Below are positions 48,794-60,950 of a stretch of 64,000 nucleotides of DNA, one piece after another. The notes under the pieces are model-generated. The model searched no databases. It saw only the letters and a list, made by a program, of their open reading frames with translations, and had not been told where the DNA came from. The stretch is from an uncultured bacterium. GTDB taxonomy: Bacteria; Cyanobacteriota; Vampirovibrionia; Gastranaerophilales; Gastranaerophilaceae. Numbering within the stretch: the first letter of the stretch is position 1; each line of letters opens with the position of its first letter. The stretch covers positions 1 through 64,000 of the forward strand of contig CASFGU010000029.1 of the NCBI GenBank assembly GCA_949294395.1. Direction: 5' to 3'. Position numbers and translations under genes: made by a program.

Positions 48794-48824
48794 GTGCCTT
48801 TTGCGCACCGGTCTATTCAATTAA
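48794..48824. repeat. Solo copy of the element end
   Basis: GTGCCTTTTGCGCACC and the following bases match the right end (11165-11195) of the inverted-repeat element at most positions, ending in ATTCAATTAA instead of ATTCCCTTAA. No left end lies nearby. It overlaps the stop codon of the gene at 48821-50557. Confidence 0.65.
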
Positions 48825-50557
48825 CCCTGGAACATTGTGAAGGTTTTTTCAACGTTTTTGTTAATCAAACTCTTAACAGTATCGTATTCTGTGGTTAATG
48901 AAGAAATCTCAAGGTCAAGCTGTTTCATATCAAGATCAAGCTGTTCTTCTTTGGCTTCAATCTTTAATTTGACAACAGAAAATTCTCTTTCTGCCCGTGC
49001 AATTGCATCGTCGTCGGTGTCTTCCATGATATATCCGTTGGCATTATATCTATCCTGATAATAATAGCCGTCGCCGTTCATTGTTGTTACAAACAGTTGT
49101 CCGTTTTTAATTGCATTGTCCAGATATTCTTTATCTTCAATATACAGGTTATTGTACCAGCCGTTTGACAGGATGTTGTTAAACAATATACTGTAGAATT
49201 CAGACTCAAACATTTCTTTGCTTGTTCCGGCATCACCGTTTTTAACCCTGTAATAGTAACCCTGATCGTCTGTTACGTAAGATGATTTGTTACCATCCTG
49301 CCTGATGTAATAATTGTCGTCGAAGCCGCCTTTAGCCTGTGCATAGAATGTCAGGAAGGCTTCTGCGAGTCCTGAAATACTTATTGCAGTTGTGCCAAAG
49401 TTTTTATTCTTTGATGCTGCTTTTGTAACAAATCCGTTATAATTGTTTGATTCGTTTATTGCATCATTGAAGGCGTCCTCAGAATGGTTTCTGCTGCCTA
49501 AATCCTTTGTTTGTGACAGGAGGTTCATTGTTTCCTGAATTGCGTAGTTAAAAGCGGTTACATCAATCTCACTCTGGCTGGTATCAAGAATTTCAGAGAA
49601 ACCTGTGAACATCTTATCCAGTATTGTGACAAGTTGTTGTTCCTGGGCTGATAAATCTCCGTAACCGCCCATCTTATAGTTCATTAAATCCAACAAACCT
49701 TTATATCCGCCAAATAGTACAGTACCTGTAAGTACGGAACCAAGTGCCGCCCCAATCTTTTTCCATATAGAATTTCTGTTTTTTTCGGTTGTATATGCAA
49801 ATGTTACATCTTCAGTCAACAGGTCAGATAAAGTAAAATTAATTTGATTATCGCCGGAGTTGCTTTGTTTTGTTCCGTTTATTACTAAATAGTTTGAACT
49901 TGCATCTAGATTTGACTTGAATTCAATAGTCCCGCTGTTGACTGAATTGATTGTAATATTCAACGCATCATGAACACGTTTTTCGTCCGCTGTCAAGTAT
50001 TCGGGATCAGTATTGGCCTTAAGGTCAATGAAGTTAATCAAGTTACCGAGAGTCATTTCGTATGCGGTAGTTTTATCAAGGAGTTCGCCGCCGAGCCCTG
50101 CAGATTCATTCAAGCCGATAGCTTTTGCCGAGCGTGCTGCGGTTTCTGACATACCTCCTGTTGCAACCATTGCATCAAGAAATGCCAGATAAACCTCCTG
50201 TTTGCTTCCGGTTATGGAACCATCCTCGTTAATACCTGCAGCTTTAGCCGCCTGAGCCATTGAAGAACTCAAAGCAATTCTTCCGTCTCGTCTGGAGAGC
50301 AGGAACGGTGTATAATCATTTACTTCTGTCGGACGCATTAATAAATCATAGGTTACATCAAACGGAGTTTCTCCGGAACCGTCCGGATCAAATATCAGAT
50401 TAGTCTGGTTAAGGCTTGCCTGATAATCGGCGGTTGCCTGTTCGAGTTCGCGCGACAATGACAGCTTCTGCTGCGCAATCTGCATTGATTCAAATTCACA
50501 GCGCGCCTTTCTGGAAGTTATGGCTAAAAATCTTGCCTGTGATGCTGCCAATCCCAT
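48821..50557 (-). CDS. Large helical surface- or appendage-like protein
   Basis: The 578-residue protein starts MGLAASQARFLAITSRKARCE and keeps a long helical N-terminus. It has one hydrophobic patch (VLTGTVLFGGYKGLL, about 270-285) and a coiled-coil C-terminus (DLDMKQLDLEISSLTTEYDT, about 540-560). The two helical ends around a globular middle recall flagellin- or hook-type subunits, but I recognise no specific family. There is no signal peptide. Its stop codon lies in the solo element end. Confidence 0.6.
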   Translation of the reverse strand: MGLAASQARFLAITSRKARCEFESMQIAQQKLSLSRELEQATADYQASLNQTNLIFDPDGSGETPFDVTYDLLMRPTEVNDYTPFLLSRRDGRIALSSSMAQAAKAAGINEDGSITGSKQEVYLAFLDAMVATGGMSETAARSAKAIGLNESAGLGGELLDKTTAYEMTLGNLINFIDLKANTDPEYLTADEKRVHDALNITINSVNSGTIEFKSNLDASSNYLVINGTKQSNSGDNQINFTLSDLLTEDVTFAYTTEKNRNSIWKKIGAALGSVLTGTVLFGGYKGLLDLMNYKMGGYGDLSAQEQQLVTILDKMFTGFSEILDTSQSEIDVTAFNYAIQETMNLLSQTKDLGSRNHSEDAFNDAINESNNYNGFVTKAASKNKNFGTTAISISGLAEAFLTFYAQAKGGFDDNYYIRQDGNKSSYVTDDQGYYYRVKNGDAGTSKEMFESEFYSILFNNILSNGWYNNLYIEDKEYLDNAIKNGQLFVTTMNGDGYYYQDRYNANGYIMEDTDDDAIARAEREFSVVKLKIEAKEEQLDLDMKQLDLEISSLTTEYDTVKSLINKNVEKTFTMFQG

Positions 50558-50671: not shown

Positions 50672-50905
50672 TTACATAGAATTCTGGATTACGCAGTCAT
50701 ATATTTTGTCAATTTTTTCTTTCATTTCGCTGAACTGTTCTTTCAAATCTTTGTAGCTGTGGATTGTCACAAATCTTTTCCCTACATCGTCAATGATTTC
50801 GCGGTGCTTTTTCTCAAGTTGTTCCGGCGTAACTACAATCCGTTCCTGTATTAAAAATATCAAAACAGCAATCAGTATAGGGGAGTATTGCAGTAATTTT
50901 TCCAT
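50672..50905 (-). CDS. Small phage membrane protein
   Basis: The 77-residue protein has one N-terminal membrane helix (about 8-20, SPILIAVLIFLI) and a charged, coiled-coil C-terminal part. Phages often carry such a protein after the terminase as a holin-like or spanin-like lysis protein. No signature is present. It is the last gene of the cluster, 15 bp after the large terminase. Confidence 0.55.
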   Translation of the reverse strand: MEKLLQYSPILIAVLIFLIQERIVVTPEQLEKKHREIIDDVGKRFVTIHSYKDLKEQFSEMKEKIDKIYDCVIQNSM

Positions 50906-50920
50906 TTTTCCCTCTTATTT

Positions 50921-52210
50921 TTATAAAGTTATCGGCCAGTAGAAGTCCACAAGATATGATGCTGCATCCATCGGATGAGACAAAAATTTTAGTTCTTTTG
51001 TCTGTTTTATCTGCTGGTAGGTTGGAACATCAATTCTTGAGGTGCCTTCTTTATACTTCAAATTGTAAATATTGTATAAGAGTTTTTCGCATTTTTTGTC
51101 TACGTAAAGACAGACTTCGCCTTCCGCGTTGCGCACTTTTGCGTTAAATGCCGCAATCCTGTTTTTCACCGGCGGGTTGTAAGCCTTTATCTGAATATCA
51201 ACGTCATAGCCGTACTGGAGAAGTTTTTTCTTGATTATGACATAGTTTGTATATTCGCTCGTGCAGCTTCTGTTGTCGCCAGAGGCATCACCGTTAATGA
51301 TAATTCTGCCTTTATGCGCCGGATAGCGCCTGCAAAATTCTTCGCACGCCTTTGCAGTTGTTGTGTTTTCCATTGCGATTTCATCAAAATAAAAAACTTT
51401 ATCCTCAGTCTTGTGTGCCAGAACCCAGCACATAGGATCCACGTTAAAGTCGCAGGATATATGCAAATCCATTTCCGGCTGGTATTTAATCTCTTTTATG
51501 TTGTCATCCGTAAAGTCTTTTATTACAAGCCCGTTGTTGTATTCCCCGTTCTGTGCAAGCACAAAAATCCGGTAATACTGTTCATCGTAGATTTTTTTTA
51601 ATTCATCGCAAAAGCCGTCGGGCAGATAGATGTTTTCTGTTGTCGGGGCTGTAATAAGCCTGTAATTAGGTGCGGGTTTTTCGACAAATGTTTTATAAAT
51701 CCATCCGCGCTGCATTTCAGGGTTTGTGTGTCCGAAAATTCTGTAGGTGAAGTTTTTCCACTCCTTTTTCTTATACTGGCGCATTCTTGAAAGAAGTACT
51801 TTAAACGTATCATAAGGAACATCGGACATCTCTTCAATTTCTACAAACCCGAGGTTCAGGGATTTAAGTTTATTCGGCTCGTCAAAATGCTTGAAAAGGA
51901 TTTCCGAGCCGTTTTTGAAAGTGAGTTTCTGCAGAGAACCCGACCACTCATAATCAACCCCTTCACGGAAATTTATATTTTCAAGGTGCTCGAAATACGA
52001 CTGCAGCGTAGTATCTCTTACCAGCGTATAGGTCTGAGCGCCTACAAGTCCCCTCACCCCCGGATATTTCATTGCAAGCAGAATACCGAGGAGGGAGCCG
52101 GAAAATGTCTTTCCGGAACCGTATCCCCCCTGATATACCGCTACATCAAGGCTGTAGTTGTGCGGGATTTCAAGAAATTCCCGCTGCGCTTTTAATAACT
52201 TATATTCCAT
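50921..52210 (-). CDS. Phage terminase large subunit
   Basis: The enzyme pumps DNA into the capsid and cuts it. The 429-residue protein has Walker A GGYGSGKT (28-35), Walker B FVEIEEM (about 122-128), and the nuclease acidic residues in SCDFNVDPM, INGDASGDNRS and SHPMDAASYLV. It looks complete. It overlaps the portal gene by 11 bases. Confidence 0.92.
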   Translation of the reverse strand: MEYKLLKAQREFLEIPHNYSLDVAVYQGGYGSGKTFSGSLLGILLAMKYPGVRGLVGAQTYTLVRDTTLQSYFEHLENINFREGVDYEWSGSLQKLTFKNGSEILFKHFDEPNKLKSLNLGFVEIEEMSDVPYDTFKVLLSRMRQYKKKEWKNFTYRIFGHTNPEMQRGWIYKTFVEKPAPNYRLITAPTTENIYLPDGFCDELKKIYDEQYYRIFVLAQNGEYNNGLVIKDFTDDNIKEIKYQPEMDLHISCDFNVDPMCWVLAHKTEDKVFYFDEIAMENTTTAKACEEFCRRYPAHKGRIIINGDASGDNRSCTSEYTNYVIIKKKLLQYGYDVDIQIKAYNPPVKNRIAAFNAKVRNAEGEVCLYVDKKCEKLLYNIYNLKYKEGTSRIDVPTYQQIKQTKELKFLSHPMDAASYLVDFYWPITL

Positions 52211-53870
52211 TGTTTTCAGTTGTTCCGTTCAGTAAAAAGTTGTTGGCGTTTTCTATCCCGTATTGTTCAAGCGCAAATTTAAAGCATTCCAGCCAGTCTA
52301 TTTTTTCTTCAACTTCCGGAACATTTGCAAACGACTGTACAACTTCAAAAAGTTCTTTCAGTCTCGATTTTCTCTCAAATGTCGCTTTTCTGTCGCCGTA
52401 TCTGTAGATGTAATTTGCGTTTCTGATGCTGTCGTCTATTGCTGTGAAAACAACTTTTCCTCTGTCATTCATCCTGATTAATTCTTCACCGAGTTTGAAG
52501 TTTGAGATTATTTCGGCGGTTTTTTCTACCATAGGAATAATAATTTTCCGGTAAACCGCATCCAGCATCATATTCAATCGTGCTTCCTGACCGCTTACGG
52601 AGTAATTGAGTTCGGTTGCGGTTCTCTGTACTGTTTGAATATTTCCCGCCATATTTTTGAAAATACCGGTGGCGCTTTCGATTGTAGATTTGAAATAATT
52701 CAAAAAATCCCAGCCTGTCATTGCTTTGTCAAAGCTCAAAGGCGCAGGCGCAGTTGTCATAAGCGCAGAATCGTATTCTATAATTTTGCCGGGTCTTACT
52801 TCCTGTTCTCCTTTAAAGCATCCTTTAGGTGCAAGATAAGGCGGATTCATCATCAAAGCCAGCGCGTCTATCTGTTTGTTCAGAATTGTCGATGAAATAT
52901 CGTTTAAAACGAGTGCTACCCGAAGCGGTGACACCCCTCTGCCGGTGTCGGGAGATTCAATTATATTTGCGTGAATAAAAGGATTTATTATAAACGGGTT
53001 TGCCTCAAGCCGTATAATCTCGCATCTTCCTGCTACTGTCACAAGCCTGTTTTTCAGTATTCTACCGTCAGAAAGTTCTATATCTCCCCAGAATTCCAGA
53101 ATTTCCAGCCTGCTGCCTTCCGGTGTACTGTCGTCCCCTCGCTGTTTTTTGTTTGCCACCACTCCTTTCAGTTTTTCAAGTTTTTCTTTTGTGAGAAAGT
53201 TGTTTGATTTGTCGCAGAAAATTTCGTCAATGGTTGCGTAAGTTCTGTAAATCTTGGCACAACTGTCCCATTTATCCCTGTTTGTTTTGTCAAAAACAAA
53301 ATCTTCGGGTTTGATAAATTTAATTTTGGCATTGTCATATATGACCCTGTCTTCTGTAACAAAGCTCCTACGGTCGGTCATTGAAAGCTGTTCTTCAAAA
53401 GTTTTTGCGCGTCTGACCTGCTTTATTATGGTTTCCCAGCCGACAAAAAGCGTGCATTCGCCGGTTTCCACAATGCTGTCAATAACCTTTTCCAGTTCAT
53501 TTTCAATATTCATCTGCTCAAATGTGTTGACGAGCATTGCCTTTTGTTTGTTTGCATATCCCTGTGTTTCCGGGGTAGTTCCCGAAACATCAAACATCGC
53601 ATCCGGATGTGAATATAGATTTTCGGAAAGATGTGATTTTAACGTCTGGGCAAGCTCATAAATGTCAGGCAGGTTTATTTTGCTGTTCCAGCCGCTAAAA
53701 TGCGGGGTGTCAGAATTGTAAATTGCGTTCCGGACGGCTTTTATGTCGCTTAATTGCTGCGTCCTGAGTGCTTCAAATCTGTCGTATTTCTCACAGATTT
53801 CAGATAAAAGCATAATTTCTTCATCCGGTCTTATTTCCTGAGTTAAGTCTTGTTGTTCAATTTTCATCAT
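52200..53870 (-). CDS. Phage portal protein
   Basis: The 556-residue protein is the size and composition of podovirus portals and sits next to the large terminase. The DTGRGVSPLRVALVLNDISSTI stretch (about 310-332) and the LNKQIDALALMMNPPYLAP region are typical. It forms the ring through which DNA enters. It overlaps the GNAT gene by 14 bases. Confidence 0.85.
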   Translation of the reverse strand: MMKIEQQDLTQEIRPDEEIMLLSEICEKYDRFEALRTQQLSDIKAVRNAIYNSDTPHFSGWNSKINLPDIYELAQTLKSHLSENLYSHPDAMFDVSGTTPETQGYANKQKAMLVNTFEQMNIENELEKVIDSIVETGECTLFVGWETIIKQVRRAKTFEEQLSMTDRRSFVTEDRVIYDNAKIKFIKPEDFVFDKTNRDKWDSCAKIYRTYATIDEIFCDKSNNFLTKEKLEKLKGVVANKKQRGDDSTPEGSRLEILEFWGDIELSDGRILKNRLVTVAGRCEIIRLEANPFIINPFIHANIIESPDTGRGVSPLRVALVLNDISSTILNKQIDALALMMNPPYLAPKGCFKGEQEVRPGKIIEYDSALMTTAPAPLSFDKAMTGWDFLNYFKSTIESATGIFKNMAGNIQTVQRTATELNYSVSGQEARLNMMLDAVYRKIIIPMVEKTAEIISNFKLGEELIRMNDRGKVVFTAIDDSIRNANYIYRYGDRKATFERKSRLKELFEVVQSFANVPEVEEKIDWLECFKFALEQYGIENANNFLLNGTTENNGI

Positions 53871-54399
53871 TGCAGTTCCTTTCGGTTATGAAACCCCATT
53901 CTTCAATATCCTGCGGTTTGCCGTTTTTGACGGTTTCTGCGGGATGGAGGGCTTCTTTTTGAAATCCTAATTTTTTTAGTAAAGTTTTTACGCGGAAGTT
54001 TTCCCTGTATATAACCGCCTTGAGCTTTTTTAGTCCGAGAGCGTCGCGGCAGTAATTCAGAAATATTACGCCTGTCAGGTATGTGAAATTCCCCCAGTAT
54101 TTTTTGTTGAAGCAGGTATTTATCTCTGCGCTGTGGAGGGTTTTTCCGGAGCCTGTAAAGTTTTCAAGGTATATAAAGCCCGCAAGTCTGTCCTCTTTAT
54201 CCACAACCGCCCAGAAAAAAGGACTCACTCGTTCGACTAAATCCGTAAAAGAGGCTAAAAATGAACCTTTTCTGTCAGTGAAGTCATCTTCCAGATACTT
54301 TGCATACCTTAGATAAAGAAACATAATCTCCGGCAGGTACCGGCAATTCTCAAAAATCCCGCGCCGGCGGTTTATTATTACAGGTTTAAGCCGGCACAT
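53857..54399 (-). CDS. GNAT-type acetyltransferase in the phage cluster
   Basis: The 180-residue protein has LAGFIYLENF (about 72-81), a CoA-binding-like stretch (ALGLKKLKAVIYRENFRVKTLLKKLGFQKE, about 121-150) and an overall GNAT layout. Similar genes occur beside phage portals, but the substrate is unknown. It overlaps both neighbours by 14 bases, so it is translated with them. Confidence 0.75.
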   Translation of the reverse strand: MCRLKPVIINRRRGIFENCRYLPEIMFLYLRYAKYLEDDFTDRKGSFLASFTDLVERVSPFFWAVVDKEDRLAGFIYLENFTGSGKTLHSAEINTCFNKKYWGNFTYLTGVIFLNYCRDALGLKKLKAVIYRENFRVKTLLKKLGFQKEALHPAETVKNGKPQDIEEWGFITERNCNDEN

Positions 54400-54751
54400 T
54401 TAACTTTATCCTCTCAAATTTTACGTAAGCATCAGAAGTTGTAAAGGCACTCTGTTCGCCTTTCAGCATTTTTTCTCTTACGCCGGCCTGCATTCCTGTA
54501 AGCGCTTCTGCCTGAATTCCGTTTATATATGTCTGAACTTTAGTGTTCCGGTTAAAAACTTTATACACGGCATCTTTTGAAAAAATAAGTTTTGCCGGTA
54601 CTTTTGAAATATCTGTTTCTATTCGGGTTACAAGTGTATGTCCGGAATTTTCCAGTTCTGTTTTAAATTCTTCTTCTATTTTTCTTTTTATTAGATCATC
54701 AATGGAAGTTTCGCTGATGAGCATCTGCTCTATTTCGTCTTTATTTTTCAT
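54386..54751 (-). CDS. Phage protein of unknown function
   Basis: The 121-residue protein starts MKNKDEIEQMLISETSIDDL, is rich in charged residues and ends in VKFERIKLNVPA. It has no recognisable domain. Its position between small terminase and GNAT gene suggests a head or assembly factor. It overlaps the GNAT gene by 14 bases. Confidence 0.6.
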   Translation of the reverse strand: MKNKDEIEQMLISETSIDDLIKRKIEEEFKTELENSGHTLVTRIETDISKVPAKLIFSKDAVYKVFNRNTKVQTYINGIQAEALTGMQAGVREKMLKGEQSAFTTSDAYVKFERIKLNVPA

Positions 54752-54768
54752 GGTATCTCCTTAATTTG

Positions 54769-55203
54769 TTAAATTTTGTTTTCATCAAGATTTGAGATTG
54801 TAATAATTTTTACGGGTTTGTCAGCTTCAATTTCTGAAGAATTGTTAAGCCCCAGATATTTGCAGAGGCTTTCCAGAGCTTTCAATCCTGCAGAGGTGTC
54901 GCGGAGCTTTTTTTTGCCGGTCGGGCAGCCTTCTTTATCCAGAATATCCTCCTCTTCAAGGGAAAATTCCGCTATTTGCAAAAGTTTTTGGATTACATAA
55001 GCCTTTTCAACCTGCAGTGAGATTATTTGTTCTTTTAATCTTGATTTGATTTCTTTTATTACAATTTTTTCTGAAAGCAGTTTCTTAGCTGTTTCTTTCA
55101 AATTGTTGTTTTTGTAACCGGCTAATTCGGCTGAAAGTTCGCCGTTGACGGTCTTTATGTATTCAGTTATAAATTTTTTATGCTTTTGCGTCAGGTATTT
55201 CAT
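54769..55203 (-). CDS. Phage terminase small subunit
   Basis: The 144-residue protein starts with LTQKHKKFITEYIKTVNGELSAELAGY, the DNA-recognition HTH of terminase small subunits, followed by a helical oligomerisation region with SAGLKALESLCKYLGL (about 108-123). It recognises the packaging site. No Shine-Dalgarno site is evident. It lies 180 bp after the adaptor gene. Confidence 0.82.
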   Translation of the reverse strand: MKYLTQKHKKFITEYIKTVNGELSAELAGYKNNNLKETAKKLLSEKIVIKEIKSRLKEQIISLQVEKAYVIQKLLQIAEFSLEEEDILDKEGCPTGKKKLRDTSAGLKALESLCKYLGLNNSSEIEADKPVKIITISNLDENKI

Positions 55204-55259
55204 TGTTTCGTATTTTTAACATTTCTTATTAAAGTTTTGTTTTTTTTTTTAACATGTGT

Positions 55260-55336
55260 TATAATAAACATGCTATTTATATTTCGGCTAGTGTAAATCT
55301 TAACAGGGGGGAATGAAAAACTTCCTGTTTTTTTTA
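55260..55336 (+). promoter_or_regulatory. Candidate plus-strand promoter and terminator, possible small RNA
   Basis: TTGTTT (55237-55242), 17 bp, TGTTATAAT (-10 at 55260-55265, extended) form a promoter on the plus strand, opposite to the phage genes. A stem AACAGG / CCTGTT (55302-55307, 55324-55329) with a T run to 55335 follows. Any RNA would be about 65 bases. It lies in the gap between small terminase and adaptor. Confidence 0.4.
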
Positions 55337-55383
55337 TGCGCGTTTTATGAAGTGGCATTGCTGCGCGCGCCTCAATAAATTAA

Positions 55384-56022
55384 TTATTTCCTGAAAAGTT
55401 TTACAACCGGTGCTGCATCTGCATCAACTGATAGTTTTGAGCGCATGTTTAAAAGGGCATCTTTATACATGCCGTACCAGTAATTAAACCTTATGTGCTG
55501 CGGATTACCCTTTAAGCGCATGCAGGTTCCGTAGACCAGAAGAGGTTCCGCAAATATTTCAGGGATTAAGCTTTCATCGGTTTCTGAATCAAGCGACATT
55601 TTTTCTGCATTCTCAGCATCTTTTGCGCAGTTTGATGTGTAGTAGATGATGTCGATGGTTTTGTCCTCCTCAAATACCGGAAAAAGCAGTTTGTCATTAA
55701 AAGATGTATAGCCGCGTGCTGGTTTAGAAGAGGTGAAAAATTTTTCAAAATCCTCAACATAGTGATAGCGTTCACCGTCAATTGACAGCAATGCTATTCT
55801 GCCTTTTACTGGATTCGTAATTTCTGCAGCGTTTGCAGGCAGTGTGACGGAGGTTTTTCTCAAAAGAAAGTTCCACTTTTCAGAATTGCAGACCTCTGTG
55901 TTGATTAGATTAATAATATTTTTAATTTTTTTGTGGTCGTTTTTGGTTAGTTCGTTGAATGCCGTGACTGTTTTGTAATTAAGTTCGGTCAGACACTTAT
56001 TTATAAGTTCAAAGTAGTTCAT
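55384..56022 (-). CDS. Phage head-tail adaptor protein
   Basis: The 212-residue protein starts MNYFELINKCLTELNYKTV, with AAGGAG upstream of the ATG at 56022. It has VCNSEKWNFLLRKTSVTLPANAAEI (about 44-68), a pattern I associate with podovirus adaptor proteins that sit under the portal. The longer frame to 56112 lacks a start signal. It may complete the capsid after packaging. Confidence 0.7.
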   Translation of the reverse strand: MNYFELINKCLTELNYKTVTAFNELTKNDHKKIKNIINLINTEVCNSEKWNFLLRKTSVTLPANAAEITNPVKGRIALLSIDGERYHYVEDFEKFFTSSKPARGYTSFNDKLLFPVFEEDKTIDIIYYTSNCAKDAENAEKMSLDSETDESLIPEIFAEPLLVYGTCMRLKGNPQHIRFNYWYGMYKDALLNMRSKLSVDADAAPVVKLFRK

Positions 56023-56128
56023 ATTTTCTCCTTTTCGTGCTGCTGAGAGATTATTAGAAAAACGGCGGTTTTGATTAATAATCACATGCGGCAGAAAAAA
56101 TCTGCCGCACAATGATTACTTTGCCGGA

Positions 56129-56794
56129 CTAGCGAATGAGCCCCTGTCTGAGCTGTTCCATAATCGCATTTTCATATCTGGCAAATTCTGCTCCGCTCAT
56201 TTTGCCGATTTGCTCGCGCGTAAAACCCCTTGTCTTTATATCGTCAAAGTTTGCATTTTGAGCATTTGCTCTCAATCTTTGCTTTGCGAGTTCGTTTTCG
56301 TCATTTAATGTTTTTGCGTGAGCTGTTTGTTTTAAATATCTGTCAACCGCGCATCTTTCGATGTTTTCGATTAACTGTGATATTCTGGAAACCTCGTCTT
56401 TATCCAGTACGGAGTTGGAATTTTTTAAATAGTTGAGCACGTCGGCTCTTCCTTCACGGTTAAAAAATCCCTGATGCTCGTTTTCAAACTCCTGAATCCC
56501 GTCGGAAAAATATCCTGCATTACCCGTATTCTGGTTGTTTCTAACCATGTTATACGCCTTATTCATAACATAGTTCACTAAATATTGTCCTTGCGTACTG
56601 TCGATTTTCCCTGTTTCAACAAGGTTTTTGATATTCAAAATATCCTTCTCGGCAATACTTCTAACATCATACTGCGGGTATTGCTGCTGTAATTCTCCGG
56701 CGTTCATAAGAGATTGCTGCGCGGCGGCCTCCGGACGGATACCGGCATAAGACGCGTTACCTGTAATTAATCTTTGTAATTCTTCGTTATTCAT
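56129..56794 (-). CDS. Phage protein of unknown function
   Basis: The 221-residue protein starts MNNEELQRLITGNASYAGI, is helix-rich, and has many Asn and Gln residues, with no motif I know. Its position between adaptor and a small holin-like gene, and its size, fit a scaffold or internal protein. It overlaps its upstream neighbour by eight bases. Confidence 0.6.
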   Translation of the reverse strand: MNNEELQRLITGNASYAGIRPEAAAQQSLMNAGELQQQYPQYDVRSIAEKDILNIKNLVETGKIDSTQGQYLVNYVMNKAYNMVRNNQNTGNAGYFSDGIQEFENEHQGFFNREGRADVLNYLKNSNSVLDKDEVSRISQLIENIERCAVDRYLKQTAHAKTLNDENELAKQRLRANAQNANFDDIKTRGFTREQIGKMSGAEFARYENAIMEQLRQGLIR

Positions 56795-57050
56795 AAATTA
56801 TTTCTCCTGTATTGTTATCTTCCAGCGAGTTCATATACTCGACAGCAAATTCTACTGCTTCATCTATAAAATTGGAAAGAAGGGCGGCGATAAAACCTTT
56901 GAATATTGCAGGAACCGGAAGATGTGATACAACATATTCAACAGCCATCTGCTTTTTCTGTTTGCCGGCAGAGGAGCCGAGAGCCTTTTCTGCTATGGCG
57001 ACAGCACTTTGCGCAAGCTGTTTTATTGTATTTTTTAAACTGCCTAACAT
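56787..57050 (-). CDS. Small holin-like phage protein
   Basis: The 87-residue protein has a lysine-rich start, an amphipathic helix and a hydrophobic stretch (LPVPAIFKGFIAALLSNFIDEAVEF, about 44-68). A holin-like or capsid-inner role is plausible. It is preceded by a terminator (57075-57116) and overlaps the next gene. Confidence 0.55.
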   Translation of the reverse strand: MLGSLKNTIKQLAQSAVAIAEKALGSSAGKQKKQMAVEYVVSHLPVPAIFKGFIAALLSNFIDEAVEFAVEYMNSLEDNNTGEIIYE

Positions 57051-57074
57051 TTATTTCCTTTCGCATTTATTAAT

Positions 57075-57116
57075 AAAAGTACCTTTAAACGCTATAATTG
57101 GAATAAAGGTACTTTT
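57075..57116 (-). terminator. Terminator after the capsid gene
   Basis: Stem AAAAGTACCTTT / AAAGGTACTTTT (57075-57086, 57105-57116) lies 22 bp past the capsid stop codon, so the capsid transcript can end here while the downstream genes need readthrough or their own promoter. Confidence 0.75.
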
Positions 57117-57137
57117 TTCGGGGTAATACTATCCGGC

Positions 57138-58019
57138 TTAAGCGGTCGGTTTTTTAACGACTAATTTAGCCAGAGCGTTTGGCTGAACTGTTTTGGCACC
57201 GTATAAATATAAGCCTCTGATTAAGTCTGAGAAACTGTCTTTATCTCTCAAACTTTCTATTTTGGCAAGCTGTGAGGCGAAAGTTATTGCATCGTTGGTG
57301 CCTGCCAGAACATAGTATTTACCGTCAACATCGGTGAGGTTTGTGCTGACAAGAACATCCATACCTGCGATTCTGCCGATAGCTCCTTCTCTTAATGTTT
57401 CGTCCGCAACGTTATGCGCACCGATAAATTCAGTGCTCTGAAGGAGGTAAGATTCAATTGTCGGGTTAATTACAACCCACGGACGTTTTGCTGCTGAAAC
57501 CGCATTCGAATTTTTCAGACAGAGCGCAAGTTTTACAAACTGTTCGTAGATTGTTGTCTTGCTTAATTCAACAGCAGCACTGTCAGAGCCGACAGTATTT
57601 GCTGCGGGAACATTCGAGTGCATGCCGAGAAGATAGGCATCCTGAACTTCTTCAATTGCATTTTTTGCGTTTTCAAGATGGGCTACCATAATATCGGTAT
57701 TTGCCTGAACCTGTGCAACGTCGTTAATTTTGAACGCAAAGAATTTTTTCTGATCAATAACAAGATCTGTTGATGTCGGTTCAAGTTCTGAGTAAGTAAT
57801 GTTTCCTGTACCGAGGGAAGAAATGCTTACAGCTGCAGGGGTTATGATTTTTACGGTGTCGCCCTGATTTTTAATTTCACCTTCATAGTTTCTGTTTACG
57901 CACTGAAGCATTACGCATTCTTTTGAGAGCATGTTGTTTAATTTCTGGCTCCAGATTTCCGGAATAAATGCGGAATAGCCGCTTGTTGTTGTTCCGGAAG
58001 TTGGTGTGTTTTCAGTCAT
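57138..58019 (-). CDS. Phage major capsid protein
   Basis: The 293-residue protein starts MTENTPTSGTTTSGYSAFIPE and has FIPEIWSQKLNNMLSKECVMLQCV, then QGDTVKIITPAAVSISSLGTGN, a pattern of P22-type coat proteins with the HK97 fold. AAAGGA is upstream. It forms the shell. No separate scaffold was identified. Confidence 0.82.
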   Translation of the reverse strand: MTENTPTSGTTTSGYSAFIPEIWSQKLNNMLSKECVMLQCVNRNYEGEIKNQGDTVKIITPAAVSISSLGTGNITYSELEPTSTDLVIDQKKFFAFKINDVAQVQANTDIMVAHLENAKNAIEEVQDAYLLGMHSNVPAANTVGSDSAAVELSKTTIYEQFVKLALCLKNSNAVSAAKRPWVVINPTIESYLLQSTEFIGAHNVADETLREGAIGRIAGMDVLVSTNLTDVDGKYYVLAGTNDAITFASQLAKIESLRDKDSFSDLIRGLYLYGAKTVQPNALAKLVVKKPTA

Positions 58020-58079
58020 AGTTTGTGTCCTTTCTTTTTAAGTTTGTGAGTAAATACATGAGCGGTGCAGTTTTAAATT

Positions 58080-59600
58080 TTAGTCATCGTTATAAATTTC
58101 TCGGAATTGAAGTCCTATAATTGCGCAGTTGTTGCTGCTCAAATTCCCGTGGACGCATAATTGTACCGAATAATTCGCTCCTGATATTTCGGCTTTTTCG
58201 AGAGTGTCAGTGCTTATAGACCAGACAGGAACCGGTTCATTATCAGGGGCCCAGACGCAGGGCAGATTCTCTGACATTTCATCGTCCGCCCAGATTAAGT
58301 GTTCAAGATGGATTGAGTAGATTTTTTCGGTGTCATCGGAGTATTCGCTGTCGTAGTCTTTGTAGACAGAAAAATCAAAGTTGTTGTCGTAAGCCTGATC
58401 AAGAATAAAGTAAAACTCGTCAATGAGCTTTCTGTGGTGGGCGGAATTCAGCGCAAGGAAAGGCGATTTCCACATAAATTCGATTGCTTCCCCGTCAAAA
58501 CTTGTTCCATAGTCCTCTCTGTAAATTTTCCCGCAGTCGTCCGCTGTCAGAATATAACCGTTAAACATGCAGGCGGTTGTTATGTTTTGCGGTACAACCC
58601 TTTTGTACCATGCCTTATTTATGTAATCGTTAATCCAGATTGTATTGAAATATTCATTATCAATATACGGAATAAAATACCATACCTGATTTTTGCTTTC
58701 ATAATGAAGGCTTATTGCATAAGGCATTGCAACCCTGTTGAAGTTTGAAAATTCGGGGCTGATTTTTCTTGAGATTTCAGAGCCCAGCTGTATCTGGTTT
58801 AACTGTCCTGACTGTTCCAGTGCATAAATTCCGCTGCTCAGGAAATACTGTTTGTTTTCAACATTTACAATGCTCCGTGTTGAATAGGCTCCTTTGTCGG
58901 CAAACGGTGTAATTGCAAAATTATCCTGACTTATGCCGGTTAAGAGATAAACGGAATTACTTTTATAAATAGCCAGATATTCTTTGTAAGGCTTAAGTGC
59001 GGTGATAGAATCCGTATTTGTATGGAAATTATTAATATACCCTGCGTCATTTTCAGATGAAAAGTCATCGTAAGTTCCGAGCGCTGAATAGTAAAGAGTT
59101 GCTCCGCTTGCAACCCAGACCCGTCCGTTGTATATGCTTATCACCTCTGAATATACAGGGTTCTCATCTCCGTCTTTAAGATTGCAGTTAACAACATCAA
59201 AGTCTGCATTATTTTTTATATAAAACAGACTGTCAGAACTGCTTGTAACCAGCACTCCGTCCAAAAAGTTTGCAAAAACAGGATGCTCGCCGGTAATTGT
59301 TTTTGAAAGTTGTGTCAGTTTTGAACCGAGCGGGGTGTAGATGTAAATTTTCCCTGAAATTGTCGTGATTACAAGATTATAAATGCTGCCTTTTTTCATT
59401 TCGCAAAGTCCGGTAATTTTTTCTTCAACCGGAAGCTGTAAAAATTCCGTATTGCCGTTTTGCCTTATAATCCCGCGATTTTGAAGAATTTCAATATTCT
59501 GGGAATCTGACCAGTAAAGCTTTTTGGTATCAAGTCCCAGCTCTGTTTTTGTTAACGACTGATTTATGCCGCCTGAAAGGTCGTAGTATGAAATTTCCAT
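58080..59600 (-). CDS. Phage tail nozzle/stabilisation-type protein
   Basis: The 506-residue protein has beta-rich repeats typical of a propeller (YWSDSQNIEILQNRGI near 29-44, ILTADDCGKIYRED near 350-363). Such proteins form the podovirus nozzle below the portal and keep the packaged DNA in. It lies between capsid and amidase genes. Confidence 0.72.
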   Translation of the reverse strand: MEISYYDLSGGINQSLTKTELGLDTKKLYWSDSQNIEILQNRGIIRQNGNTEFLQLPVEEKITGLCEMKKGSIYNLVITTISGKIYIYTPLGSKLTQLSKTITGEHPVFANFLDGVLVTSSSDSLFYIKNNADFDVVNCNLKDGDENPVYSEVISIYNGRVWVASGATLYYSALGTYDDFSSENDAGYINNFHTNTDSITALKPYKEYLAIYKSNSVYLLTGISQDNFAITPFADKGAYSTRSIVNVENKQYFLSSGIYALEQSGQLNQIQLGSEISRKISPEFSNFNRVAMPYAISLHYESKNQVWYFIPYIDNEYFNTIWINDYINKAWYKRVVPQNITTACMFNGYILTADDCGKIYREDYGTSFDGEAIEFMWKSPFLALNSAHHRKLIDEFYFILDQAYDNNFDFSVYKDYDSEYSDDTEKIYSIHLEHLIWADDEMSENLPCVWAPDNEPVPVWSISTDTLEKAEISGANYSVQLCVHGNLSSNNCAIIGLQFREIYNDD

Positions 59601-59603
59601 AAG

Positions 59604-60101
59604 TTATTCTCCCTGTAATTTAAGTTTGTACCACTTGATTTTTGAGCGGATAAAAGAACCCGCATCATCTTTTTCAACCCACGGATAGGGAGGAATGTAT
59701 GTAATATCAATTTTGCCGGCGCTTGTTGTTTGTGGATGTTTTTTGCCGAACTCGTAATGCGTCATAATTGTTTCGGGAGTGATAGGAATTTCATATTTGA
59801 TTGATAATTCCGCGCATAATTTCATTGCCGCTTCAAACTGTTCCGGGGTAATCGGGTAAGCTCCGGTGTTGTTTTTGGACTTAAAGTCTGCCATTGCGCA
59901 GAGTGCAACCCCTATGGAACCGGTGTTGCCTCCTCCTGTATGGGCTGCGTATTCCCCGTCATTGCAGTTTAAGTTTGCTTCCGGTGCGTGGGTTCCGTTG
60001 TGAACTCTGCCTTCTCTGTCAACCAGAAAATGGTAACACGATTTGTCGCAGGCATTAGGATAATAGTTTCCTGCCGTCCAGTGTAAAATAATTCTTTTCA
60101 T
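59604..60101 (-). CDS. N-acetylmuramoyl-L-alanine amidase (endolysin)
   Basis: The 165-residue protein from ATG 60101 starts MKRIILHWTAGNYYPN; H7 would be the first zinc ligand. YHFLVDREGRVHNGTH and AAHTGGGNTGSIGVALCAM follow, then MTHYEFG, with the later histidine as a ligand. These are the Amidase_2 motifs. It cuts the peptidoglycan link for cell lysis. GGAG precedes the ATG. Confidence 0.85.
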   Translation of the reverse strand: MKRIILHWTAGNYYPNACDKSCYHFLVDREGRVHNGTHAPEANLNCNDGEYAAHTGGGNTGSIGVALCAMADFKSKNNTGAYPITPEQFEAAMKLCAELSIKYEIPITPETIMTHYEFGKKHPQTTSAGKIDITYIPPYPWVEKDDAGSFIRSKIKWYKLKLQGE

Positions 60102-60115
60102 AAATAGCTCCAATC

Positions 60116-60331
60116 TTATATTGATTTAATTGAATAAAGCCAATCTGAGTGTATCTTTGCGTATAAAATTGCTGCATGGGTTCGATTTCTGGCTTGAAGT
60201 TTCAGAACAATTTTATCTATATAATCTCTTACCGTTCCGTAAGAAATTTTTAAGATTACCCCAATTTCTTTATCAGAATACCCCGATGCAACCAAAGTTA
60301 TAACAGCCCTTTCCTTTGGTGTTAATTTCAT
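60116..60331 (-). CDS. Stand-alone LuxR-type HTH protein
   Basis: The 71-residue protein starts MKLTPKERAVITLVASGYSD and has KEIGVILKISYGTVRDYIDKIVLKL, a LuxR/GerE helix-turn-helix with no sensor domain. AAGGA lies just before the ATG. It heads the amidase-nozzle-capsid unit, so it may switch on that unit. Confidence 0.85.
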   Translation of the reverse strand: MKLTPKERAVITLVASGYSDKEIGVILKISYGTVRDYIDKIVLKLQARNRTHAAILYAKIHSDWLYSIKSI

Positions 60332-60488
60332 CCTTAATTCCTTAATCTGGTATCCGGTTAATTGTCTTTTTAAATATTACATTAATCAAATTTTTTTATT
60401 TTAATAATAATTCCTTTTTAAAATATTTGGCGCAAGAGTGCCGTATGCCGCACTGGCAGGGCAATACGCTTTTTATAAAAAATAAAAA

Positions 60489-60509
60489 GGGATGAAGCAA
60501 TTTCATCCC
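60489..60509 (-). terminator. Intrinsic terminator of the zinc-ribbon gene
   Basis: Stem GGGATGAA / TTCATCCC (60489-60496, 60502-60509) with an adjoining T-rich minus-strand tail, about 80 bp past the stop at 60588, separates that gene from the LuxR-type gene. Confidence 0.8.
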
Positions 60510-60587
60510 GGTTAAGAGAGTAAGATAATTTAAAAGGATTGTTTTTACGGTGAATGTAAGAAATTTAAGAAAGGTAATGCCGGTACT

Positions 60588-60950
60588 TTACAAGAATTTA
60601 TTCTCATGTAATCCGATTTTTAAAGAGCTTAAGTTTGAATAACATCGTTTTTTTACTCCGTATTCGTTGTAATTCAGATAGAATTTACCGCAGCGATTGT
60701 AGGATTGGGATGCTTTTTCGTAGAGGATAAATTTCTGCATCCGGTGAAAAAACTCTTTCGCCTTAGAATTAGTTTTTCTGATAACAGAAATATTGTCATC
60801 TTTATCTATCCTTGTGAGCTGTACAACTGTATGTCCGCAAACGGGGCACTTTTTTAAAAAGTCGAGTTCGCACAGCACAAAATCTCCTTGAGGAACTACC
60901 TTATAAGTTTTAGTCTTATGAAGGGTTCCGCAGCAGTGAATATATCCCAT
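60588..60950 (-). CDS. Zinc-ribbon phage-cluster protein
   Basis: The 120-residue protein has CC near residues 6-7, CELDFLKKCPVCG (about 27-39) and two later cysteines (RCGK and KRCYS). Together they look like one or two zinc sites. Its function is unknown. It is transcribed alone before its own terminator, and a palindrome lies upstream of its start. Confidence 0.65.
   Translation of the reverse strand: MGYIHCCGTLHKTKTYKVVPQGDFVLCELDFLKKCPVCGHTVVQLTRIDKDDNISVIRKTNSKAKEFFHRMQKFILYEKASQSYNRCGKFYLNYNEYGVKKRCYSNLSSLKIGLHENKFL

Follow-up and report, generated by a model that had tools for sequence, protein, structure and literature searches.

A phage-type capsid cluster, very probably domesticated, in Candidatus Gastranaerophilales, and toxin-like proteins that share the end of its scaffold-position protein

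Gene content of the capsid-type cluster

The sequence analysed here, which we call the window, is a stretch of 64,000 nucleotides (contig CASFGU010000029.1, assembly GCA_949294395.1) from a Candidatus Gastranaerophilales genome in the genus of Candidatus Scatousia. Positions 50672-60950 hold a capsid-type cluster of 14 minus-strand genes, very probably a domesticated, non-mobile particle locus, and the C-terminal motif of one of its proteins recurs in toxin-like proteins encoded elsewhere in the genome. In transcription order the genes encode a Zn-finger-like protein of 120 amino acids (aa), a LuxR/GerE-type helix-turn-helix (HTH) protein of 71 aa, an amidase, a tail nozzle, the capsid protein, a holin and a scaffold-position protein, and then a head-tail adaptor, the terminase small subunit (TerS), a 121-aa protein, a GNAT enzyme, the portal, the terminase large subunit (TerL) and a 77-aa holin-like protein. 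The initial annotation of the window had named TerS, TerL, portal, capsid, adaptor, nozzle, amidase and GNAT on one strand, which is borne out for all of them by Pfam and PHROG matches, and it was also right about a LuxR-type HTH near the head of the run and, as the gene order shows, about packaging genes being transcribed last. The holin, the scaffold-position protein and the 121-aa, 77-aa and 120-aa proteins are additions to that list.

The major capsid protein (57138..58019; all cluster genes are on the minus strand) is of the HK97 type (PHROG 267, 1e-51; profile match to the solved capsid 8e16, 3.7e-33), and the portal (52200..53870) matches SU10_portal (2e-22) and, by profile, the portal 9k09 (5e-28). 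TerS lies at 54769..55203 (Terminase_2, 6e-15) and TerL at 50921..52210 (Terminase_3, 1e-21); in the latter both the ATPase and the nuclease motifs are intact, with Walker A and B and the nuclease residues Asp 254, 308 and 415 conserved. For the adaptor (55384..56022; SU10_adaptor, 4e-6) the likely start is at about 56022 although the open frame extends to 56112, because the proteins of relatives are 212-220 aa long. The nozzle (58080..59600; PHROG 3287) is predicted to be a beta-propeller of the short-tailed type. Its AlphaFold model (pTM 0.81) matches the nozzles of Pa223, P22 (gp10), SU10 and T7 (gp12) with E 1e-17 to 1e-9 and also that of VP1, and for this reason a particle encoded here would be short-tailed.

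Lysis functions are represented by an N-acetylmuramoyl-L-alanine amidase (59604..60113), a probable endolysin (Amidase_2, 6e-16; PHROG 5867 endolysin, 6e-35), and by a Holin_LLH-like holin (56787..57050; PHROG 6918 holin, 9e-8). The HTH protein (60116..60331; Pfam GerE, 3e-14) is the probable regulator and occurs in 32 of 32 clusters. The first gene of the run, an open reading frame (ORF) for a Cys-rich protein (60588..60950), has an ortholog in 23 of 32 clusters and no Pfam or PHROG family match. At the other end, the ORF of the 77-aa protein (50672..50905; 29 of 32 clusters) encodes one N-terminal hydrophobic segment, and its match to BhlA is weak (0.076). The GNAT acetyltransferase gene (53857..54399; Acetyltransf_3, 4e-10) also occurs in related free phages, there 3' of the nozzle gene, while the gene for the conserved 121-aa protein (54386..54751) lies just 3' of the capsid gene in related phages; the AlphaFold model of this protein (pLDDT 82) gave nothing convincing among PDB matches.

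ORF, Pfam and PHROG scans of the cluster and its flanks revealed no integrase, replication protein, repressor or tail fibre in the cluster, and direct repeats of useful length, as attachment (att) sites would give, were not found in the flanks; the initial annotation had reported the same absences. Its terminator after the capsid gene did not hold. Near the capsid and scaffold-position genes the minus strand has a single strong hairpin with a T-run, at 56111-56085, 3' of the scaffold-position gene, and the hairpin at 57133 sits on the opposite (plus) strand.

Conservation, inheritance and selection

Each of the 13 genomes of the genus has TerL as one unbroken copy, with identity of 88-99% (one genome, G012, has a distant second copy in addition), and the portal is single-copy and intact in the same 13. 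At the family level, 227 of 383 genomes contain a portal homolog. About 149 of these are of the orthologous type, counted from the result table at E < 1e-190; they are spread over about 19 genera and are nearly always single-copy and open. Gene order and strand are identical in all long stretches examined (31 loci), and because the order is identical in so many relatives, the arrangement is far beyond chance. The flanking genes are common to cluster loci across the genus.

The initial annotation had singled out conserved position, intact ORFs and a ratio of nonsynonymous to synonymous substitution rates (dN/dS) below 1 as the properties to look for in relatives. It turned out that the cluster lies at the same site with intact frames genus-wide, and that pairwise dN/dS over the cluster is 0.04-0.10, which means strong purifying selection. 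The values of TerL and capsid are mostly 0.01-0.09 (TerL 0.01-0.06), and TerL is the most conserved cluster gene, with a mean identity of 84%.

The tree of nine concatenated cluster proteins has 13 of 25 splits in common with the rpoB tree, compared with a mean of 0.3 and a maximum of 3 in 1000 name shuffles. Each genus with more than one sample is monophyletic in the cluster tree, and in the rpoB tree the carriers make up one crown group with few losses within it. Close relatives of TerL lie in metagenome-assembled genomes, many of them from animal guts, that go by the names Candidatus Gastranaerophilales, Candidatus Scatousia and Melainabacteria. The cluster has been fixed at one chromosomal place since long before the species diverged.

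These are properties of gene transfer agents (GTAs): phage-type head, tail and terminase genes have a fixed locus in different species and are retained there as genes of the host, they are inherited vertically under purifying selection, and the cluster with its flanks is without replication, integration and excision genes and thus not self-transmissible. The integrase, att sites and patchy presence in close relatives that mark an active or recent prophage were not found. Neither were the integrase, replication or capsid-remodelling genes and helper dependence of a phage satellite of the phage-inducible chromosomal island (PICI) type, and the cluster has its own complete capsid set.

A C-terminal motif shared by the scaffold-position protein and toxin-like proteins

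The gene at 56129..56794, named for its position, encodes a protein that ends in a motif of 31 residues, FTREQIGKMSGAEFAxxExxIMEQLRxGLIR, below also called the tag. Mean identity among carriers is 37% in the body of the protein and 76% in the motif. In related phages the protein encoded between portal and capsid, the usual place of scaffolds, has the same C-terminal motif, with scores of 52.7, 47.5 and 38.5 bits in phage contigs L212, L217 and L223 and weak scores in L207, L200 and L179; it is also found at the C-terminus of the corresponding protein in contig L209. Judged by position and form, the motif would be the capsid-binding end of a scaffold protein. Cultured phages searched with the scaffold-position protein gave no real relatives.

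A profile of the motif was searched in 51 whole genomes. The window's own genome has 13 matches, some distant from the cluster, and 28 of 36 carriers have matches beyond one. Among 12 genomes without a related cluster the motif is missing in 9 (two of the motif-free genomes belong to g2, the sister of the host genus), weak in 2 and clear in 1. Genes outside the cluster often have the motif twice. The tagged proteins are of several types, such as lipase-like proteins, GH108 muramidases, PBECR1 nucleases and DUF6973 proteins, and many of them adjoin small immunity-like proteins. For instance, contig 50 of the window's genome contains four adjacent tagged genes, which encode a PBECR1 nuclease (2e-13), an LPD3-like protein, a lipase-like protein and one further protein, and another tagged gene lies about 20 kb from this group; contig 19 encodes a tagged lipase-like protein. 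On contig 30 the motif is at the N-terminus of a protein, and a membrane protein is encoded next.

Tagged genes are also inserted in the cluster itself. In other carriers the gaps between portal and TerL and between TerL and the 77-aa gene (U77) contain extra genes, which differ between close relatives, and many of these combine the motif with a toxin-like domain and adjoin genes for small proteins of the exported or membrane type. In L120 a GH108 muramidase that has the motif twice adjoins an LprI lysozyme inhibitor, tagged lipase-like proteins adjoin exported proteins of about 155 aa in L079 and L095, and L094, L163 and L301 have tagged DUF6973 proteins. Some candidates in the gaps are untagged, for example a MuF-like protein with a serum-amyloid-A-like domain in L145. 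The divergent clusters of genus g9 have 8 and 17 motif matches, arrayed with small membrane proteins on the opposite strand. Among fetched orphan loci, 8 of 8 tagged lipase genes adjoin an opposite-strand gene for a protein of 111-134 aa with 3-4 transmembrane segments. A variable toxin domain beside immunity-like genes is thus found here as in MuF polymorphic toxins; the N-terminal MuF domain of the latter is absent from the scanned tagged toxins, with weak MuF-like matches only in L145 and L144. Viral contigs searched with one tagged nuclease, and cultured phages searched with a tagged lipase, gave no real relatives.

Two side observations concern the arrays. In three g9 loci (L051, L382 and L383) tagged DUF6973, lipase-like and GH108 genes alternate with small opposite-strand membrane protein genes, and the ends of the genes in L382 and L383 are common near-identical stretches. 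Besides, two very long tagged proteins (L378:4777-7173 and L379:2587-4794) have two toxin modules in one frame, apparently formed by recombination between adjacent toxin genes.

Small RNA gene and flanking host gene

A probable small RNA gene is located at 55270..55335 on the plus strand, between adaptor and TerS and antisense to the cluster. It has a -10 box (TATAAT, 55260-55265), a conserved 5' part and a terminator hairpin. The promoter is conserved; the sequence of the terminator stem varies with the pairing kept, and the fold has a z of -2.6. An exact 15-mer of the RNA is present in nearly all cluster loci examined, in the rearranged g9 clusters and at both g2 sites where the cluster was lost. 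When an exact 16-mer was searched against viral contigs, the RNA gene turned up in short contigs of Gastranaerophilales-like type; the matches in other phages were to unrelated coding sequence. The RNA matches no Rfam family, and near the starts of cluster or tagged genes it has no target except at its own place.

Downstream of the cluster, the gene at 48821-50557 encodes a 578-aa protein (N-terminus MGLAASQARFLAITSRK) without a Pfam or PHROG family. The possibility that it is a tail fibre or part of the cluster was dismissed, as the protein is one of a large host family that has many paralogs in each genome.

Losses, rearrangements and related phages

The sister genus g2 is without the cluster. 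The genome G052 of this genus retains a shortened adaptor fragment that adjoins the same flanking gene, and both g2 genomes retain the small RNA at the former cluster site. The initial annotation had reasoned that relatives with a clean att site in place of the cluster would speak for an ordinary prophage; what is found here is a deletion of the ancestral cluster and not an empty att site, because the adaptor relic and the small RNA remain. Beyond the conserved arrangement, other genera and families of the order (g9, g36, g37, G099, G107, G090 and G092) have single-copy homologs in different gene orders, often dispersed over 15-30 kb or over several contigs.

Viral contigs in IMG/VR with TerL identity >= 77% are all shorter than 19 kb; those of 39-48 kb have TerL identity <= 59% and are real phages. 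Several phages with TerL of about 45% show the order TerS, TerL, portal, a protein of about 100 aa, one of about 300 aa, capsid, adaptor, nozzle and GNAT. The cluster hence descends from a short-tailed phage group, its gene order having since been reshuffled.

Most genomes of genera g24, g29, g34 and g40 have, sometimes in two copies, a further capsid gene set that is more distant (TerL about 58%; for example L057, L059 and L061) and is either a prophage or another domesticated particle. In L066 and L067, from family f6 of the order, the nuclease half of TerL is the same and the ATPase half different, as though the N-terminal domain had been swapped.

Discussion

The initial annotation had left open whether the cluster is a prophage, a satellite or a domesticated particle. 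Conservation, selection and the missing genes speak for the last and against the decayed prophage and the satellite. A role in DNA transfer like that of a GTA is likely, and it is somewhat probable that the tagged toxins are particle cargo. Combining the two, we favour with moderate confidence a domesticated particle that packs DNA and has tagged toxins as additional cargo. In such a system the HTH regulator would control the making of capsid, portal, adaptor and nozzle, TerL and TerS of the cluster would pack DNA into the particle, and lysis by holin and amidase would free particles unable to copy or integrate themselves. In phage procapsid assembly scaffold ends bind the capsid protein, so that proteins with such an end can be enclosed. 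The capsid-binding end of the scaffold may have become joined to a changing set of toxin genes across the genome, and the tagged proteins would most likely enter the procapsid together with the scaffold. The nozzle would then deliver the contents and the toxins would reach neighbouring cells, with the small immunity proteins shielding kin. Particle formation, DNA content, motif loading of cargo and toxin delivery are what we infer from the genes and their distribution.

Several observations weigh against this model. Eight of the 36 carriers have a single motif match, presumably that of the scaffold-position protein, and the Fisher p of 3e-5 for co-occurrence of motif and cluster is obtained from carriers of common ancestry, so independence is overstated. 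Tagged PBECR1, LPD3-like and similar proteins mostly stand without an obvious small immunity neighbour. PHROG offers no scaffold annotation for the 56129-56794 protein, whose name comes from its position and motif, and no receptor-binding tail protein was found within the cluster. The match of TerS to Terminase_2 is full-length, and the loss of DNA specificity expected in a GTA is not visible. In genus g17 (L069 and L300) capsid, portal, TerS, TerL and tagged genes are still present, but those for nozzle, holin, GNAT and the 77-aa protein are gone, the nozzle being absent genome-wide. As for particles, packaged DNA and killing, the system is known here from its genes alone.

A plain GTA, with the motif-bearing toxins unrelated, otherwise loaded or merely sharing an old phage motif, would explain conservation and selection without toxins, fits the eight carriers without an extra motif copy, and has a precedent in FpGTA, for which toxin cargo is not described (PMC12946183). 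We consider it a serious but rather unlikely explanation, since the motif forms the conserved C-terminus of a protein of this very cluster, the scaffold-position protein, its presence goes with that of the cluster, and some tagged genes lie inside the cluster, between portal and terminase. The broad tagged repertoire with its immunity-like partners would also suit a weapon only, in which toxins are carried without functional DNA transfer and the terminase serves only particle maturation. This is quite improbable: the position of TerL as the most conserved gene (84%), with all catalytic residues constrained, suggests that DNA packing matters and argues that it is still needed.

That the cluster is a conserved yet self-mobile small prophage, or a helper-using satellite spreading between hosts, is very doubtful. 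The phage-type genes and the related true phages in IMG/VR would agree with such an element, but integrase, replication, repressor and flanking repeats are missing, and the fixed site, genus-wide presence and host-like tree already largely refute it. Retention of a decaying prophage by chance is hardly credible; the partial or full loss in some lineages (g17 and g2) points that way, whereas for the orthologous cluster it is refuted, since about 20 genera have intact frames and a low dN/dS.

If the model of a DNA-packing particle with tagged cargo is true, GTAs extend to non-photosynthetic relatives of Cyanobacteria in animal guts, in about 20 genera. To our knowledge, GTAs have been described in few lineages, and it was not until 2026 that a short-tailed one was first reported from the gut. 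The tagged toxins offer a concrete sorting rule, a single 31-residue motif, for protein loading into a virus-derived capsid, and they touch the open question of which benefit keeps such particles although their producers lyse; a motif that works in this way would be a usable tag for loading proteins into capsids. Whether, more generally, a host-owned capsid serves here as a toxin-delivery machine, with genome-wide effectors sorted by a copy of the scaffold end, released by lysis together with DNA and injected via a short tail, is to our mind an evenly balanced question; in that case the cluster might also be a GTA that kills non-kin. Searches of mainly open-access literature on GTAs in Melainabacteria, Gastranaerophilales or Vampirovibrionia, or on toxin-loaded GTAs, found nothing on point. 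Nor did the open literature searched yield a description of a domesticated capsid whose tagged toxins are encoded genome-wide.

Among known systems, RcGTA and other GTAs (Rhodobacterales, Bartonella, Brachyspira and Desulfovibrio) are likewise domesticated, single-copy, non-mobile, under purifying selection and equipped with lysis genes. RcGTA differs in its long tail and its proven particle activity, the present system being described from genes only. We know of no tagged toxin set in RcGTA or the other GTAs. The families of portal, adaptor and nozzle are those of short-tailed phages of the SU10/Kuravirus, P22 and T7 type, but the cluster is without replication or lysogeny genes and its gene order is different.

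The closest published system in kind is FpGTA of Faecalibacterium, a short-tailed GTA locus of 10.5 kb whose 40 nm particles contain 8-9 kb of host DNA (PMC12946183). Both are clusters of about 10 kb with TerS, TerL, portal, scaffold, capsid and short-tail genes, genus-wide and vertically kept in a gut bacterium. FpGTA belongs to another phylum and has a separate operon for lysis and tail genes (PMC12946183), whereas lysis and nozzle genes are here in one cluster. MuF proteins of temperate phages, among which Bxa has been studied (PMC11699363), are toxins proposed to ride in phage heads (PMC5576092), and PBECR nucleases occur fused to MuF in phage proteins (PMC5512222). Toxins proposed in the head, immunity proteins and related toxin domains (PBECR) are shared features. 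Here, in contrast, the vehicle is a fixed host locus and not a phage, and most toxins are encoded at other places in the genome. Sorting would rely on a scaffold-like motif in place of MuF, save for a few MuF-like proteins encoded in the hotspot of the cluster. A toxin-delivery capsid of this kind would be a class of bacterial icosahedral-head weapon of its own, beside contractile injection systems and the MuF toxins that phages carry.

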